Part shown: piece after piece, positions 1-19,239 of the stretch
Numbering within the stretch: the first letter of the stretch is position 1
Layout: each line of letters begins with the position of its first letter
From: a virus
Length of the DNA stretch: 20,882 nt
Virus record (IMG/VR): IMGVR_UViG_3300008625_001118
Location: 1 to 20,882 of that record
Strand: one strand, 5' to 3'
The notes under the pieces: model-generated
The model's database searches: none
What the model was told of the DNA's origin: nothing
The model's input: the letters and a program-made list of their open reading frames with translations, nothing else
Program-made: the position numbers and the translations under genes

Positions 1-210
1 GAATGGACTGCTTCTGCAGATGATGACGCAAAAATAGGGTTTATTGCACAACATTTAACAGCAAGTGCACCAGAATTGGTAGATATGAGAGATTTAAGTG
101 GATTAAGTGTAGATGATGGTGGTATTACTGCATTACTTACAAAAGCATTTCAGGAAGTATCCTCATCTTTATCAGATTTGGGATCAAGGATAGCGGTATT
201 AGAATCTTAG
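1..210 (+). CDS. Tail spike/fibre C-terminus with S74-type intramolecular chaperone (5' partial)
   Basis: The reading frame is open from base 1 and ends at TAG 208-210, giving the last 69 residues of a longer protein. The visible part has the usual ending of the Peptidase_S74 intramolecular chaperone found on phage tail spikes and fibres: IGFIAQ at about residues 12-17, PELV at about 24-27, a short SVDDGG..TALLTKAF stretch, and a final amphipathic helix ending in RIAVLES. In the family this domain trimerises, helps the preceding beta-structured fibre to fold, and then cuts itself off. The catalytic Ser and Lys of that cleavage lie upstream of the window and cannot be checked. The position directly before a glycosyltransferase cassette makes this protein a plausible target of the modification enzymes. 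Which fibre or spike it belongs to cannot be said. Confidence 0.85.
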   Translation, partial: EWTASADDDAKIGFIAQHLTASAPELVDMRDLSGLSVDDGGITALLTKAFQEVSSSLSDLGSRIAVLES

Positions 211-229
211 TATAAAATAATAGGTATTA

Positions 230-2518
230 ATGGTTGTATTTGAACATAAAAAATTATTAATTAATTTAGACTTCAACGATTCGTGTCAATTAAACCTTAC
301 ATCTTTAACAGATGAAGATTTAGACATTAAGATTTATTATGGTAAAAATGGTGAAGAGTTATTAGAATATTCAATTGAATTATTAGGAAGAGATTCTACT
401 AGTTTTAATGGTTATCAAGTATATTTTATAGATTGGCATGTAGAAGTACATATAAATGATGAATTAGTTTTTTTCCATGACATAAATTTAGAAGATCAAG
501 ATGTACGAATTGTAATGGTATCTAAAAATTTAGGAGATTCAACTACGTGGATACCATATGTGGAACAATTTAGGCAAAAACATAAATGTAATATATATCT
601 TGTAACTGTAAATAAAGAACTTTTTGAAACTGAGTATCCATTTATTACTTTTTTAGATGAATATGATAGTTCTATAGATTATCATGCAACTTATTGGTTA
701 GGTGGCTTTGATATTCTTGATAAAAAGAAAACCCCTGGAAAACATCATCCTACACCCACATATTTAGGAGATATGCAAAAAATTGCTTCGGATATATTAG
801 GTCTTGAATATAAAGAAGAAAGAGCTAAACTTACAGTATATAAAGATTTTAAATTACCTTCTAAAAAACCATATGTTACAATAGCTCCATTTGCAACTGC
901 TAGAGCAAAGATGTGGAACTATAAAGGTAATGATGGTTGGCAAGAATTAGTTGATTATTTAAAAAATAAAGGTTATGATGTTGTAAATTGTTCAAGGGAA
1001 TCGGATGGAGAAAAATATTTTAAAATTCCAAAGGGAGTAATTACAAAACCAAAAGATACTTCGATAGAAGAGAGAGTATTTGATATAAAACATTCAGAAT
1101 TTTTTATAGGGGGGAGTTCAGGATTATATTGGGTAGCTCATTCTCTCGGAGTTTGGTCTATTATGATAACAGGACATACTCATAAATTTTTTGATGGAAA
1201 ATCAAAAACAGTAAGAGTTTCGTTAGAAGAAGATGAAAATGTTTGTACTGGATGTTGGCATAACGAAGAAATAGATTGGAATTTTGATAATTATTTCTGT
1301 CCTTTACAACAAGAAGATGATTTTTCAGGATTCCCAAACTTAGATTCAACTTCAAGAAAATGGGAATGTACTAAAAAAATAACAACGGATATGGTTATTG
1401 ATGCGATAAAAGAAGTTGAATCTAAAAAAAGTAAAATAGAAAAAGTAAAAGAAAATTATATTAGTTTAGGAATTAATATTGGACATGATGCAAGTGCTGC
1501 TTTATGTATTAATGGAGAATTAATTTCTAATATAGCAGAGGAACGATTATCAAGATCTAAACATGATAAATGTGAAAATGGACTACCTTTAGAATCTATG
1601 AAATATGTGTTAGGTTGTAATTCTATTGATTTACCACAAGTAAATTCAGTAGTTTATAATGGACCTGGAGAAGGACATGGAGTAGATTATGTTTTACAAC
1701 ATCAACAAAAATTTCATAAAATGGGAATTACAGATTTAAAATTAACATATGGATTACACCATTTAATGCATGCATATTCAACATATTATTCATTTCCTGG
1801 TAAGAAAGGAACTGCTGTAATAGTAGATAATGGTGGTGATATAGCATATCATTGGCATGTTAGTAGATTAGGACAAAAATATAATGTAGATAATACTAAC
1901 GCAGAAAATGCTTCAATATATAAAATAGAAAAAAATACATTTGAAACAGTTTATAAACACTACCATAATTATTTTCCAACAAACCCTGGTACTGATTATC
2001 TTGGATTCTCTTTAGGGGCTTTTTATGAAATGGCTTGTGGAGTAGTTGGTTTGGGAAAAGATGGATTTTCAGCAGGTAAATTAATGGGGCTGGCTTCATA
2101 TGGTAAAAAAGAAAATTTATTTGATAAGATGGGAAAGCCAATCCATAGGGATTTTATTCGAATAGATGAAAGTTTATATGGAGATTTCTATATTCCAAGA
2201 GATAAGGAGAATCAAAATTTAATGCAGTGGTATAAATATGATTTACGAGAAGAAGATTTCCAAACTCAGGCAGATTTTGCTTTACAAGTACAATTACAAT
2301 TTGAAAGAGCAATTTTATTTCTAATTAAAAAAGCAAATCTTTTAGCACCAAATGAAAATCTTTATTTAGCAGGTGGAAGTTTCCTAAATTCCACAGTAAA
2401 TCAAAAAATAGTTGATAGTGGGTTATTTGAGAATGTATATATAATACCAGCAGCAGATGATACTGGTATTTCAATAGGATGTGCATATTATGGGTATTGG
2501 AGAAATTTCCGTGAGTAA
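230..2518 (+). CDS. TibC-like heptosyltransferase fused to Kae1-like carbamoyltransferase domain
   Basis: This 762-residue protein has two enzymes in one chain. Residues ~1-400 resemble the TibC/BAHTCr O-heptosyltransferases that place heptose from ADP-heptose on Ser/Thr of autotransporters. Visible marks are LGDSTTWIPYVEQF (101-114, likely base D103), APFATARAKMWNY (219-231, K227 for nucleotide-sugar phosphate), GGSSGLYWVAHSLG (294-307) and four Cys (C339, C342, C357, C380) matching the family's metal finger. Residues ~408-762 are the N-terminal Kae1-like half of a NodU/TobZ O-carbamoyltransferase: GINIGHDASAAL (414-425), metal ligands H510 and H514 with D533, KLMGLASYG (617-625), LAGGSFLN (713-720) and DDTGISIG (743-750). 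The usual C-terminal YrdC-like half is absent; it is supplied two genes downstream. The start ATG 230 has only a weak TAGGT upstream. The next gene begins inside its last codons, suggesting translational coupling. The domain calls are firm; the acceptor is unknown. Confidence 0.87.
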   Translation: MVVFEHKKLLINLDFNDSCQLNLTSLTDEDLDIKIYYGKNGEELLEYSIELLGRDSTSFNGYQVYFIDWHVEVHINDELVFFHDINLEDQDVRIVMVSKNLGDSTTWIPYVEQFRQKHKCNIYLVTVNKELFETEYPFITFLDEYDSSIDYHATYWLGGFDILDKKKTPGKHHPTPTYLGDMQKIASDILGLEYKEERAKLTVYKDFKLPSKKPYVTIAPFATARAKMWNYKGNDGWQELVDYLKNKGYDVVNCSRESDGEKYFKIPKGVITKPKDTSIEERVFDIKHSEFFIGGSSGLYWVAHSLGVWSIMITGHTHKFFDGKSKTVRVSLEEDENVCTGCWHNEEIDWNFDNYFCPLQQEDDFSGFPNLDSTSRKWECTKKITTDMVIDAIKEVESKKSKIEKVKENYISLGINIGHDASAALCINGELISNIAEERLSRSKHDKCENGLPLESMKYVLGCNSIDLPQVNSVVYNGPGEGHGVDYVLQHQQKFHKMGITDLKLTYGLHHLMHAYSTYYSFPGKKGTAVIVDNGGDIAYHWHVSRLGQKYNVDNTNAENASIYKIEKNTFETVYKHYHNYFPTNPGTDYLGFSLGAFYEMACGVVGLGKDGFSAGKLMGLASYGKKENLFDKMGKPIHRDFIRIDESLYGDFYIPRDKENQNLMQWYKYDLREEDFQTQADFALQVQLQFERAILFLIKKANLLAPNENLYLAGGSFLNSTVNQKIVDSGLFENVYIIPAADDTGISIGCAYYGYWRNFRE
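2499..2503 (+). promoter_or_regulatory. Ribosome binding site GGAGA deciding a GTG start
   Basis: GGAGA lies seven bases before GTG 2511 and within the last codons of the preceding gene. It favours GTG 2511 over GTG 2481 and ATG 2490, which have no comparable site. It also removes an extra N-terminus that would not align with the family, whose first strand starts at SLGIHIGHD. Confidence 0.7.
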
Positions 2519-3512
2519 AACTTCATTAGGAATACATATTGGACATGATAGTGGGGTATCTTTAGTAAAAGATGGTGTATTAGTTAATAGTATATGTCAA
2601 GAAAGATTAAGTAGATTAAAGCATGATGGATTTGATCTTAAATTTCCAAAAAAAGCTTTAGATTATATACTTTCAACAACAAATACACAATTAGATAATA
2701 TAGATAATATAACATATTCAATATGTACCCAACATGAGTATGAAGAAGATTATAATGAGTTAAAAGAGAGCGTAAATTCAGTAGTACCAATTAAAAATTC
2801 AATTAAACATCATACTGCACATGTTATATCAACATATGACTTTTTTGGTTTAAAAGAAGAGGCTGTAGGTTTAGTAGTAGATATGGGCGGTAGTATTTTT
2901 TATAAAGATGGAGAAAAAAATAGGGTTGAAGCACATACTATATTTGATATAAATCAAACAGAACTAAAAACATTATATCAATATAAAACTCCGAAAATAT
3001 CAAATCCAATTTCAGATAATTTAAATACATTCTGTTCATTAGGAGCTTTTTATGAAAACGCTGGACTAAAATTAAACTTAGGTACTTTTAATACTTGTTC
3101 AGGAAAATTAATGGGATTAGCTGGATATGGAAATGAAAAAACAGTACAAAAACGTTGGCCAGAACCATTTATTAATATTCCAGAAGATTTAAATGGAGAA
3201 TTAACTTTAAAATTTAAAACTTGGGATTGGAATGATTTTGATTTTTCTAATATAAAAACACACAATGATATGGCAGATTTTAGTCTTAAAGTTCAAATGG
3301 AATTTGAAAATGCTATAATGTTTTTAGTTAAAAAAGCAAAATTTTTAAAAAATTGCGATACTTTAGTGTTGGCAGGTGGGTGTTTTTTAAATTCTATTGT
3401 AAATCAAAAAATAATTGATTCTGAAATTTTTAATAATATTTATATAATACCAGCAACAGACGATAGTGGTGTATCTATAGGTTGCGCGTTTTATGGTTAT
3501 AGGGAATTATAA
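2511..3512 (+). CDS. Stand-alone Kae1-like carbamoyltransferase domain (second copy)
   Basis: A 333-residue protein from GTG 2511, overlapping the previous gene by eight bases. It is only the Kae1-like transferase half of a NodU/TobZ-type O-carbamoyltransferase. Visible marks are SLGIHIGHDSGVSL (5-18), a metal site H100-x3-H104 with D124 in LVVDMGG, KLMGLAGYG near residue 200, LAGGCFLNS and a C-terminal DDSGVSIGCAFYGY. It clearly resembles the second half of the upstream protein along its full length, and the two look like tandem duplicates that have diverged, with differences concentrated in the middle where the acceptor should bind. In the family this domain moves the carbamoyl group from carbamoyl-adenylate to a sugar hydroxyl. 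It lacks the YrdC-like activating half, so it should need the protein encoded next (TAATG overlap). Acceptor specificity is not readable from sequence. Confidence 0.85.
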   Translation: MSKTSLGIHIGHDSGVSLVKDGVLVNSICQERLSRLKHDGFDLKFPKKALDYILSTTNTQLDNIDNITYSICTQHEYEEDYNELKESVNSVVPIKNSIKHHTAHVISTYDFFGLKEEAVGLVVDMGGSIFYKDGEKNRVEAHTIFDINQTELKTLYQYKTPKISNPISDNLNTFCSLGAFYENAGLKLNLGTFNTCSGKLMGLAGYGNEKTVQKRWPEPFINIPEDLNGELTLKFKTWDWNDFDFSNIKTHNDMADFSLKVQMEFENAIMFLVKKAKFLKNCDTLVLAGGCFLNSIVNQKIIDSEIFNNIYIIPATDDSGVSIGCAFYGYREL

Positions 3513-4990
3513 TGAAAAAAGATGTTTATTTAGGAAAAGAGTATAGTGATAAAGAAATTTTAGGTAAGATTACAGCTAATATTTCGAATATTGATTATAA
3601 AAAACTTCCTATGAATAAAATTATTGAAGAGACTGCTCGATTAATATATGAGCAAAATATAGTAGGTTGGTTCCAAGGAGCATCAGAAACAGGACCAAGG
3701 GCTCTTGGAAATCGTAGTATTTTAGCAGATGCTAGAAATCCTGATATGAAAGATAGGATAAATAGTTCTGTAAAACACAGAGAATGGTTTAGACCATTCG
3801 CTCCAAGTTGTTTGGAAGAAGAAGCACATAAATATTTTAGTCATACAACAAAAAGTCCTCATATGTTATTAATTTCAGATGTTAAAGAAGAATGGAAAAC
3901 GAGATTACCAGCTATTACTCATATTGATGGTACTGCAAGACTTCAAACTGTATCTAAAGATACAAATAAAAAATATTGGCAAGTTATAAAAGAATTTGAA
4001 AAACTTTCTGGTATTCCAGTGATTTTGAACACTTCTTTTAATGATAATGGAGAACCAATTGTAGAAGATCCAGGAAATGCTATAAATTGTTTTATAAGAA
4101 ATAATATGGATTATCTTGTAATAGGAAATTACCTTGTTAGTAAGAAAAAGAGAAATATTAATTATTTAAAACCTATAAATAAAAAACATCGTGTTGGAAT
4201 AGTATGTTTTAGTTATAATCGAGCAGATTATCTTGAAAAAACTATTGATAGTTTGATTAAAACTATGGATAAGAGAGATAAACTATTTTTATTAGAACAA
4301 TCTTCTGATCCAGAGGAAAAAAAGAAATCTTTAGAAATTATAAAAAAGGCAGGAGAAAAAATAGATGTTGTAATATATGATATGCCGTATAATCTTGGAT
4401 GTAGATTGGGAACTAATAGAGTTTGGGAAACTGGGTTTTTTGATGATTGTGAATATTATATGAATATAGATCATGATATGATAATTAAAGAACCACTAAC
4501 TACAGGTATAGAAAAATTAGATTCTTCACCATATATTTGGATGGTAACATATCATAATAGTCCAGAACATGATGTTATGAATGTAGATGGAGATTGGATA
4601 TTAAAAAGTCATACTCGTGGGTGTCATATGATGTTAAGGATAGAAGATTTTCTAAAAATGATGCCAATATGGATGCATCATAATGGTGGACACGATAATT
4701 TAAATTGGCATGGTGGGTTGGATTGGTATTTAATGGATTATGCAGAAGCAGCTCCTGGACCACACACTAAAGAAATAATAGCTGTATTACCAGGGGCATC
4801 AGAACATATTGGTAGAGAATCTGCATGGCAAGGTGAGTATGATGATGAATATAAAGAAGAAGATGAAAAAATGTTTTTAAAAGTAAGAAGTATGAAAGAA
4901 TTGTTAGAATATTATCGTCCCGATCATAGATATGATGGAGATGATGTTTTTTGGTATGAGAAAGAATATGCGGATATTATTAACGGGTAG
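3512..4990 (+). CDS. YrdC-like carbamoyltransferase C-domain fused to GT2 glycosyltransferase
   Basis: A 492-residue fusion starting in a TAATG overlap with the gene before, with AGGGA six bases upstream of the ATG. Residues ~33-212 are the C-terminal YrdC-like domain of NodU/TobZ carbamoyltransferases: GWFQGASETGPRALGNRSIL (52-71), KHREWFRPFAPS (88-99), HIDGTARLQTV (137-147), NTSFNDNGEPIV (173-184) and DYLVIGNYLVSKK at the end. In the family this part makes carbamoyl-adenylate from carbamoyl phosphate and ATP. Residues ~227-480 are a GT-A family 2 type glycosyltransferase starting RVGIVCFSYNRADYLEKTI, with the metal-binding DHD at 320-322 and a later HGGLDWYLMDY that may hold the catalytic base. 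The domain would complete the two Kae1-like proteins upstream. The GT2 sugar donor and acceptor are unknown. Confidence 0.85.
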   Translation: MKKDVYLGKEYSDKEILGKITANISNIDYKKLPMNKIIEETARLIYEQNIVGWFQGASETGPRALGNRSILADARNPDMKDRINSSVKHREWFRPFAPSCLEEEAHKYFSHTTKSPHMLLISDVKEEWKTRLPAITHIDGTARLQTVSKDTNKKYWQVIKEFEKLSGIPVILNTSFNDNGEPIVEDPGNAINCFIRNNMDYLVIGNYLVSKKKRNINYLKPINKKHRVGIVCFSYNRADYLEKTIDSLIKTMDKRDKLFLLEQSSDPEEKKKSLEIIKKAGEKIDVVIYDMPYNLGCRLGTNRVWETGFFDDCEYYMNIDHDMIIKEPLTTGIEKLDSSPYIWMVTYHNSPEHDVMNVDGDWILKSHTRGCHMMLRIEDFLKMMPIWMHHNGGHDNLNWHGGLDWYLMDYAEAAPGPHTKEIIAVLPGASEHIGRESAWQGEYDDEYKEEDEKMFLKVRSMKELLEYYRPDHRYDGDDVFWYEKEYADIING

Positions 4991-5843
4991 CGAAGGATTT
5001 ATAGGTAAAAACTTACAAGCAGCTTTATTAGATAATGGGGCTGCTTCTGTAACAACTATAGAACAAAATTATATGGATTATATAGGTTGGGAAACCAGTT
5101 TATTTAAGGCTTTAGATAAAATTGATATAATTTTTCATGTAGGTGCTATAACAGATACTATGGAAAAAGATGTTAATTTTATGATGAAATATAATTTTGA
5201 ATTTAGTAAAGTATTATTTGATTTAGCTGAAATTTCTAAAATACCAATAGTATATTCATCTTCAGCTGCTTGTTATGGAACAGAAACCGCTGGTATGCCT
5301 ACAAATTTATATGGTTGGAGTAAATATGTAACTGAGTGTTATGGAGTAGCAAAATGTACTAATTTTATTGCATTAAGATATTTTAATGTATATGGAGAAG
5401 GAGAAAGTCATAAAGGTAAAATGGCATCAGTAGCATATCAAGCTATGCTAAATGGACAGGATAAAAAAGTACTTTCACCATTAGCATTAAAAGAAAAGTT
5501 TAAATTATTTCCTAAAAAAGTTATTAAACAAGAAGATGGTTCAACTATTATTAAGCAACCAAAAAGAGATTTTGTATATATAAAGGATGTAGTAAGTGCT
5601 AATATACATTGTTTAGATAAAATAGAATCAGGAATATATGATGTTGGAACAGGAGAAAGTAATACTTTTGAAGAAGTTTTAAAAAATTTAAGTATAGGTT
5701 ATAATTATTATGAAGAATCTAAAATACCTACAGGTTATCAATTTAACACTAAATCAGACAAAACTAAGTGGTTACCAGATTGGAAACCAGAGTATAATTT
5801 AAAAACAGGATTAAAAGAATACAAAACTATTATAGGAGTATAA
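4968..5843 (+). CDS. hldD: HldD-like ADP-glycero-manno-heptose 6-epimerase
   Basis: A 291-residue extended short-chain dehydrogenase. ATG 4968 is chosen because the Rossmann strand MRILLTGSEGFIGKNL begins there; an open frame extends further upstream to 4932 but that adds no conserved residues. The gene overlaps the previous one by 23 bases. Visible marks are GSEGFIG for NAD(P) (7-13), IIFHVGAITDT (54-64), YSSSAACYG (96-104), catalytic Y115 and K119 in YGWSKY, and FNVYGEGESHKGKMASV (139-155), which is close to the HldD signature, then RDFVYIKDVV (200-209) and YDVGTGESNTF. HldD interconverts ADP-D-glycero- and ADP-L-glycero-D-manno-heptose. Its presence beside a TibC-like heptosyltransferase supports an ADP-heptose route. 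The phage has no other heptose-synthesis gene here, so it would draw on the host's ADP-heptose. A related sugar epimerase remains possible. Confidence 0.82.
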   Translation: MRILLTGSEGFIGKNLQAALLDNGAASVTTIEQNYMDYIGWETSLFKALDKIDIIFHVGAITDTMEKDVNFMMKYNFEFSKVLFDLAEISKIPIVYSSSAACYGTETAGMPTNLYGWSKYVTECYGVAKCTNFIALRYFNVYGEGESHKGKMASVAYQAMLNGQDKKVLSPLALKEKFKLFPKKVIKQEDGSTIIKQPKRDFVYIKDVVSANIHCLDKIESGIYDVGTGESNTFEEVLKNLSIGYNYYEESKIPTGYQFNTKSDKTKWLPDWKPEYNLKTGLKEYKTIIGV

Positions 5844-18606: not shown

Positions 18607-19239
18607 TTGAGTCAAGAAGCTTGGAACATATTTTCTAAAATTATAGATACCTATTCTTATGATGACCATCGTAGGTTAGCTATAGAAGAGTGTTATTATT
18701 CAAATAATACAACGTTTGAAACAGAAGTTTTATTATCAGATGAATCTTGTAAATCATTAATAGATTATACAAATAGATATGTAAATGATAAGATACTTGA
18801 TAGTGTAGATGGTTTACCTGATTGGCAGATAACCTACTTACAAAAAGATATAGAAAACTTATGTACTGTTTCAGAGATTAGAAATATAATAAAAATTGCG
18901 TATGATAAGTATCCAAATATTAGTAATGTAGAGTTTTTTGTTAGAAAGTATGGAGTAGGTGCGAGAGAAAAATTACCTTGGCATATTGATGATGCAGTTG
19001 TATCTTCTACAATACACTTGTCAAATTATTTTGAATATGATGGCGGCGACATTTTATTTATAGAAGATGAAGAGATAAAAAGAAAAAGTGAATTAAAAAA
19101 AGGATGTGGATTTTTTTTTGATGGAAATGTTATACATAGTGTAGAACCCATTACTACAGGTAATAGGTGGACTTTAATAGTATTTTTCTTTGCCAAACAT
19201 AGTGAATGGTCTAAAGAAGAAAATAAGGTTATATTTTGA
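18607..19239 (+). CDS. 2OG-Fe(II) oxygenase (prolyl-hydroxylase type)
   Basis: A 210-residue protein starting at TTG 18607 (no in-frame ATG or GTG is available nearby, and AAAGG lies ten bases before). Residues ~108-195 are a double-stranded beta-helix dioxygenase core: WHIDDA gives the iron ligands H126 and D128, YDGGDILFIED is the usual strand with the GG turn, GCGFFFDGNVIHSVEPI supplies the distal iron ligand H177, and TGNRWTLIVFF supplies R187, which binds the 2-oxoglutarate carboxylate. These enzymes hydroxylate a protein side chain or small molecule using oxygen and 2-oxoglutarate. T4-like marine phages often carry several, usually among virion genes; the substrate is unknown. It overlaps the next start by four bases (TTGA). 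Confidence 0.88.
   Translation: MSQEAWNIFSKIIDTYSYDDHRRLAIEECYYSNNTTFETEVLLSDESCKSLIDYTNRYVNDKILDSVDGLPDWQITYLQKDIENLCTVSEIRNIIKIAYDKYPNISNVEFFVRKYGVGAREKLPWHIDDAVVSSTIHLSNYFEYDGGDILFIEDEEIKRKSELKKGCGFFFDGNVIHSVEPITTGNRWTLIVFFFAKHSEWSKEENKVIF

Follow-up and report, generated by a model that had tools for sequence, protein, structure and literature searches.

A split class III carbamoyltransferase in a virus of bacteria, with two transfer domains and one probably shared activating domain

Results

Three adjacent viral genes carry the domains of a class III carbamoyltransferase

We analysed the virus record IMGVR_UViG_3300008625_001118 over its whole length of 20,882 nucleotides (nt; 20.9 kb, hereafter the window), which comes from a virus of bacteria and encodes a tail sheath and other virion proteins. 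Three adjacent genes in it together hold the domains of a class III O-carbamoyltransferase, the NodU family that includes TobZ, GdmN, NovN and VtdB: a Kae1-like transfer domain (Pfam Carbam_trans_N, here N) and a YrdC-like activating domain (Carbam_trans_C, here C). We write NC for the two domains fused in one open reading frame (ORF) and N' for a short stand-alone N. On the plus strand, the end of a collagen-like fibre gene is followed by gene 1, gene 2, gene 3, an HldD-like epimerase gene, a small gene and the tail sheath gene (Table 1).

Table 1. Features of the carbamoyltransferase locus, in positions of the window.
Feature	Position	Strand	Remarks
Collagen-like fibre protein, 3' end, with endosialidase-type chaperone	1..210	+	Full length at positions 2238-3581 of contig L001
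Gene 1: TibC-like (glycosyltransferase family 9, GT9; autotransporter heptosyltransferase), residues ~1-400, and Kae1-like transfer domain, residues ~406-762	230..2518	+	
Kae1-like (Carbam_trans_N) domain of gene 1	1445..2515	+	H510, H514, D533, D744; base H419
Overlap of gene 1 stop and gene 2 GTG start, 8 nt	2511..2518	+	Possible translational coupling
Gene 2: stand-alone Kae1-like domain	2511..3512	+	H100, H104, D124, D318; base H12; GTG start at 2511, alternative ATG at 2490
Gene 2 stretch with a relic in contigs L470 and L471 (38/41 bases)	3406..3446	+	Relic lies across the last codons of TibC-N and the 51-base gap before C-GT
Gene 3: YrdC-like activating domain (Carbam_trans_C) and glycosyltransferase family 2 (GT2)-like domain	3512..4990	+	First base is the last base of the gene 2 stop (1-nt overlap)
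YrdC-like domain proper	3635..4144	+	Sole one in the record; K88xR90, S175xN177
GT2-like glycosyltransferase domain of gene 3	4148..4987	+	Weak Pfam match; 78% identical in L470
Gene 4: HldD-like NAD-dependent epimerase	4965..5843	+	Nearest solved structure 1eq2 (ADP-heptose 6-epimerase)

Gene 1 joins a glycosyltransferase to a transfer domain (Glyco_transf_9, residues 199-322, and Carbam_trans_N, E 3e-24), and its matches in the PDB are TibC (4rap, E 4e-27) as well as TobZ, GdmN, NovN and VtdB. The N-terminal half scores 213.5 bits against NCBIfam TIGR04414, above the curated cut-off of 200; its LGD at residues 101-103, which would contain the catalytic Asp, aligns to TibC, and it has Cys 339/342/357/380 where the iron-finger cysteines of TibC are 339/342/358/370, the last spacing differing. 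By its TIGR04414 score gene 1 resembles the TibC/AAH autotransporter heptosyltransferases, from which it differs in being fused to a Kae1-like domain and in lying in a phage, near collagen-like fibres instead of an autotransporter. Another TibC-like domain ends a 1227-amino acid (aa) protein of Microcystis phage Mel-JY01 (L468 2400-6083) that is annotated as methyltransferase FkbM and lies one gene from a structural protein gene.

Gene 2 has a Kae1-like domain (Carbam_trans_N, E 2e-27) with no glycosyltransferase fused to it, and by sequence it matches TobZ, GdmN, NovN and VtdB in the PDB. Its predicted structure (mean predicted local distance difference test score, pLDDT, 87.8; predicted template modelling score, pTM, 0.90) aligned to TobZ entries with Z of 31.0-31.3, to NovN with 31.6 and to GdmN entries with 27.6-32.1, over their first ~350 residues only; the model spans the Kae1-like part of these enzymes and stops at the start of their YrdC-like part. 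Gene 3 supplies Carbam_trans_C (residues 42-211, E 1.4e-73) and likewise matches TobZ, GdmN, NovN and VtdB; its second half matches Glycos_transf_2 weakly (E 1.4e-3, under the Pfam cut-off) and has no PDB match below E 0.1. In the fused NC enzymes of phages XacN1 (L005 3939-6236) and RAS14 (L011 3927-6227), a tail of ~230 aa without a Pfam match stands where gene 3 has its GT2-like half.

Scanning all six frames of the window with our own profiles gave two N domains and one C domain, all remaining matches having E >0.1. This agrees with the initial annotation, which had placed Kae1-like domains with intact motifs in genes 1 and 2 and the only YrdC-like half in gene 3. Its further proposal, that each transferase is tied to a different glycosyltransferase, did not survive: a glycosyltransferase is joined only to the gene 1 copy, gene 2 consists of the Kae1-like domain and nothing else, and it is the activating gene 3 that carries the GT2-like half.

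Both transfer domains retain their catalytic residues

Metal and base residues were assigned after GdmN (metal ligands H133, H137, D156 and D333; proposed base H27) and the KxR and SxN motifs after a review of N6-threonylcarbamoyladenosine (t6A) synthesis, which names them as TsaC motifs and calls them conserved in TobZ; both sets were mapped by alignment (the passages cited here and below are from PMC9633730, PMC9654439, PMC8670742, PMC4358343, PMC3037559 and PMC7824862). Although the copies in genes 1 and 2 are only ~43% identical to each other, neither has lost any of the four metal ligands or the base His, and each is intact at all 20 columns whose conservation across 379 sequences is 95% or more. 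Loss of essential residues from one copy, one of the outcomes that the initial annotation had named as refuting its proposal, is therefore absent, and the metal/nucleotide site, whose loss we looked for in gene 2 as a TsaB-like trait, is intact. Gene 3 has both KxR and SxN. The three genes depart from class III enzymes in one respect, a single polypeptide being replaced by three ORFs.

The initial annotation had also proposed that the two copies serve different acceptors, and had called for an alignment of their acceptor pockets. Approximate identity between genes 1 and 2 in the acceptor-loop regions was 10/22, 4/7 and 9/21, not clearly lower than the overall 129/310. Conservation of the metal and other invariant residues was thus borne out, while the loops are not clearly more divergent than the domains as a whole and so give no clear sign of different acceptors.

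We extended the residue survey to other viral copies, the 379 distinct sequences being from ORFs complete at both ends and including 74 full-length stand-alone N (the window's two among them, via the near-identical contig L001). The metal ligands were retained in 74/74 full-length stand-alone N; among the short N', the H, H and D were present in 78/79 and the last D in 77/79, the remainder being gaps. KxR and SxN were present in 91/91 distinct C-only ORFs, 4 of them cut by a contig end. At the base position, 44 of the 74 full-length copies have His and 30 have Lys; N' is without a profile stretch of ~50 positions. Median ratios of nonsynonymous to synonymous substitution (dN/dS) in the N-C-N' family were 0.117 for N, 0.087 for C and 0.115 for N' (25 random pairs with dS 0.1-1.2 from 39/42 N-C-N groups; pairs share members), which places the short N' copies under purifying selection.

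The split is old, and related operons keep a relic of gene 2

Two further contigs, L470 and L471, hold orthologous operons of TibC-N, C-GT, epimerase and sheath genes, in which L470 is 55-78% identical to the window in protein sequence, depending on the domain; the collagen-like fibre is seen in L470, and L471 is cut within gene 1. Each record as a whole (44 kb and 7.8 kb, both fragments) contains a single N, that of TibC-N, and a single C, that of C-GT. Since TibC-N in these records has no C other than that of C-GT, genes 1 and 3 are probably the core pair and gene 2 an accessory copy.

Both operons also contain a short match to the 3' end of gene 2. Its alignment score of 66 compares with a maximum of 46.5 in 2000 mononucleotide shuffles and with 35.5 for the rest of the window (one alignment scheme), and 60 shuffles against the whole window peaked at 49.5. 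We therefore rejected a chance origin, the score lying above every shuffle, and conclude from this relic that the common ancestor had gene 2, which was then deleted in the L470/L471 lineage. The N tree places gene 1 of the window and its L470 counterpart as sisters (98, starred), gene 2 as sister to both (98, starred) and fused enzymes as the next relatives (97, starred). The split in this operon is real and old.

Stand-alone transfer domains recur beside a single activating domain in other viruses

Our search of viral_contigs for direct relatives of genes 1 and 2 returned only the near-identical contig L001/L002. To place the split among more distant relatives, we scanned 382 loci from viral_contigs, including L001 and eight named-phage loci and omitting the window copies L002 and L003. 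All held N or C, and merging loci with an identical ORF left 312 groups, in which near-identical loci are still counted apart. With stand-alone N counted from 200 aa upwards (the shorter ones of L060 and L069 thus fall outside the tally), 192 groups had one fused enzyme, 17 two fused enzymes, 46 two N and one C, 34 one N and one C, 13 one N and one fused enzyme, 2 two N and one fused enzyme, and 8 other contents. Every domain had its own ORF in the 46 groups with two N and one C, a figure that is no population frequency, as three of the scans targeted split forms. N exceeded C in 62/312 groups (64 counting two cut orphans); C exceeded N in 3, each with a C cut by the contig end.

Stand-alone N was accompanied by C in the same locus in 126/128 and 16/16 cases in the two N-queried sets, which share L159 and L160. 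This amounts to 117/119 distinct proteins, and the two without C both begin at the first bases of their contigs. In 36 hand-picked records, Carbam_trans_C was found in 36/36 and Carbam_trans_N in 35/36. The N-N-C order of the window occurs also in L143, which has a fused NC in addition; N-C-N' is the order in many marine, cyanophage-like contigs, with a variant in L165 that has two full-length N; L062 has N-N-NC; and NC with a separate N occurs, among others, in the cultured phage S-SSM7, where SSSM7_121 is a fused NC and the nearby SSSM7_123 (369 aa) is N only. The first eight phage loci that we examined all carried fused enzymes. The trans arrangement proposed by the initial annotation, two transfer domains to one activating domain in the record, is thus found in other viral lineages as well, most of them marine.

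The N tree calls for 11 changes between the stand-alone and fused states, 7 of them forced by starred branches, and the C tree for 5 changes of the stand-alone state, 2 of them so forced. Tandem N copies are often sisters in the N tree (the L062 trio at 100, L165 at 97 and L317 at 95, all starred; L143 at 93). Both trees are quick ones, and the N tree has long branches and one join that drew a warning; it omits L469 and N ORFs cut at either end (hence L471), and the C tree omits C ORFs cut at the 5' contig end.

Two unusual arrangements were seen alongside these. In L043 429-3335 and L046 4667-7573 (968 aa), a radical SAM domain (seen in L043) is fused ahead of the Kae1-like and YrdC-like pair, and in L202, L205, L196 and L465 a YrdC-like gene is followed by N' alone, without the usual upstream N in the stretch examined. 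Outside that stretch, the L202 record contains another N-C pair, in which the match to C runs through one stop.

We also considered a cellular origin of the split, and rejected it: the halves are normally together in cells, and only two of the nearest 80 cellular loci (L385 and L386) have N and C as separate complete ORFs, both of them apparently phage contigs, with 5 loci cut. In the cellular loci L391 and L464, a short N ORF (105 or 86 aa) precedes a fused ORF. In cyanobacteria, every one of 22 matches, from 20/117 genomes, falls in an open frame of 489 aa or longer (frame length was scored, not domain content). L385 and L386 are filed as Pelagibacterales and Chloroflexi metagenome-assembled genomes (MAGs), and their neighbourhoods are similar to each other. 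The neighbours look like phage virion genes, and both look like phage contigs misbinned into MAGs.

Neighbouring genes

L001 extends 3371 bases upstream of the window and encodes collagen-like proteins there. Collagen-like (Gly-X-Y) proteins adjoin the glycosyltransferase/carbamoyltransferase genes both in L001 (1-3581, the end of which is window 1-210) and in L470 (549-1904); the two full-length proteins of L001 have an endosialidase-type chaperone at the C-terminal end, and the L470 copy was assigned from a similar start alone. These proteins are possible targets of glycosylation. Gene 4 scores 184.6 bits against TIGR02197 (ADP-heptose 6-epimerase HldD), below the curated cut-off of 274.6. 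The best relative of the tail sheath, among the matches listed, is that of Microcystis phage Mel-JY01 (41% identity).

At window 18607-19239, the families matched in PHROGs are labelled DNA endonuclease, and the best NCBIfam matches are Fe2+-dependent dioxygenases (E 7e-9, below cut-offs); the endonuclease label may be wrong here, and possibly likewise for denV of S-SSM7, which lies beside its carbamoyltransferase. The 423-aa protein at window 19236-20507 matches nothing in Pfam or PHROGs and nothing convincingly in the PDB; six phage records contain relatives, four of them annotated as DNA polymerase family A, and the window protein is possibly a divergent polymerase.

Discussion

We reason that genes 1-3 form a class III O-carbamoyltransferase spread over several chains, in which gene 3 serves gene 1 and, where present, gene 2, and we put the probability of this reading at roughly two in three. 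The YrdC-like domain of gene 3 would make carbamoyl-AMP from carbamoyl phosphate and ATP, and, judging by domain content and co-occurrence, the intermediate would pass in trans to gene 1 and, in phages having it, to gene 2. The genes overlap (by 8 nt and 1 nt in the window, and at 65/77 C-to-N junctions in the groups), which hints that their translation is coupled and that the products form a complex. Gene 2 itself would be an old product of tandem duplication that has kept its catalytic residues, and it probably provides the shared activator with another acceptor or another acceptor position. The acceptor may be a sugar, as both fused glycosyltransferase halves (GT9 and GT2) and the HldD-like gene point to one; it is possibly a heptose, perhaps on the adjoining collagen-like fibre, since TibC heptosylates protein and the place of the fibre beside gene 1 is kept in L001 and L470. 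The best reading of the wider survey is a recurrent design of one activator with several transfer subunits, with contact, activity and different acceptors inferred.

Several observations weigh against this interpretation. Gene 2 is absent from L470 and L471, which retain genes 1 and 3; its branch in the N tree is longer than that of gene 1 (0.85 vs 0.33); and it is known from one sequence, L001 being identical, so its own dN/dS is unmeasurable. Two complete fused enzymes, with no sharing, make up 17 of the 312 groups, and, the records being fragments, another YrdC-like domain may lie beyond the 20.9 kb. Finally, the base position is Asn in 75/79 short N' (example: L159 1927-2742), while both window copies have His. 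By our reading of the alignment this Asn is equivalent to the H14N change of TobZ, a variant whose structure is deposited, according to its title, with carbamoyl adenylate (PDB 3vex), and some N' copies may therefore transfer differently or hold the intermediate.

This last point leads to the strongest of the alternatives, which we nevertheless consider unlikely: that gene 2, like N' elsewhere, does not itself transfer carbamoyl but is a partner shaping or regulating the enzyme formed by genes 1 and 3, or a copy that holds carbamoyl-AMP. There is a precedent in TsaB, a TsaD paralogue described as not supporting nucleotide and metal binding in the same way, and the Asn of N', its missing ~50 positions and the faster evolution of gene 2 are all as such a role would have it. 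Yet gene 2 has kept its base His, every metal ligand and 20/20 conserved columns, stand-alone copies elsewhere retain their metal ligands (gaps aside), dN/dS of N' equals that of N, and L470 and L471 manage without gene 2.

We give still less weight to redundancy, in which gene 2 would use the acceptor of gene 1, add transferase capacity and be heading for loss. The deletion that left a relic in L470/L471, the long branch and acceptor-loop regions that are not clearly more divergent than the rest fit this idea, whereas an identity of ~43% with all highly conserved columns intact argues for long maintenance. An assembly or sequencing artefact that broke an ordinary fused enzyme, as the start of gene 3 at the gene 2 stop might suggest, has next to no chance of being right and is refuted by relatives with separate genes: L001 equals the window over 9509 bases without a mismatch (possibly from the same sample), in L470 and L471 the genes are likewise separate and their domains end at the same places, and 483-1655 bp lie between N and C at 27/55 N-to-C junctions (counted if <2000 bp).

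How does a multi-chain enzyme with a shared activator compare with known systems? The solved class III members hold both domains in one chain, and a 2022 paper, in the passage available to us, states that the holoenzymes of all characterised class III enzymes have both domains; genes 1-3 share the two domains and the catalytic residues with them, gene 2 is predicted to have the same fold (Z 27.6-32.1), and the same carbamoyl-AMP chemistry would be expected. They differ in having separate chains, two transfer copies to one activator, and glycosyltransferases fused to genes 1 and 3. In t6A synthesis (TsaC/Sua5 with TsaD/TsaB/TsaE or Kae1/KEOPS), in the passages available, the YrdC-like and Kae1-like proteins are on separate chains too and a pair of Kae1 paralogues occurs; the window sequences, however, belong to carbamoyltransferase families, and both copies keep their metal ligands, unlike TsaB. 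HypF, in which acylphosphatase and zinc-finger domains are described as preceding a YrdC-Kae1 order, was rejected as an identity, as Pfam finds neither domain in genes 1-3 and yields only a sub-threshold HypF_C_2 match to gene 2.

Phage carbamoyltransferases have been described before (a 5-hydroxymethylcytosine, 5hmC, enzyme, cyanophage genes and a predicted metabolite cluster of S-SSM6a). The phage Nol-like enzymes (PHROG 1601; S-SSM7; the phage 5hmC carbamoyltransferase) are of the same family as the window genes; the passages available call them carbamoyltransferases and mention neither a split nor a shared activator. At the level of titles and abstract openings, with subscription journals mostly uncovered, we found no split or shared-activator carbamoyltransferase in the literature.

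A wider proposal, which we hold tentatively and at short of even odds, is that modular systems for carbamoylation have arisen repeatedly in viruses of bacteria. In each, a single subunit would make carbamoyl-AMP for a set of exchangeable transfer subunits; tandem duplication would add such subunits and deletion remove them, and every one would have an acceptor of its own on a glycan of the virion or the host. If genes 1-3 work in trans as we propose, carbamoyl-AMP would have to move from one protein to another, a transfer that t6A synthesis likewise demands of threonylcarbamoyl-AMP, and these viruses would offer a simple system for studying the route of such a labile intermediate. The sharing of an activator is testable on the variants that nature provides (N-N-C, N-relic-C, N-C-N', NC-N' and N-N-NC) and on the cultured phage S-SSM7, and the findings draw attention to carbamoylated sugars, which would be a little explored side of phage glycan modification.

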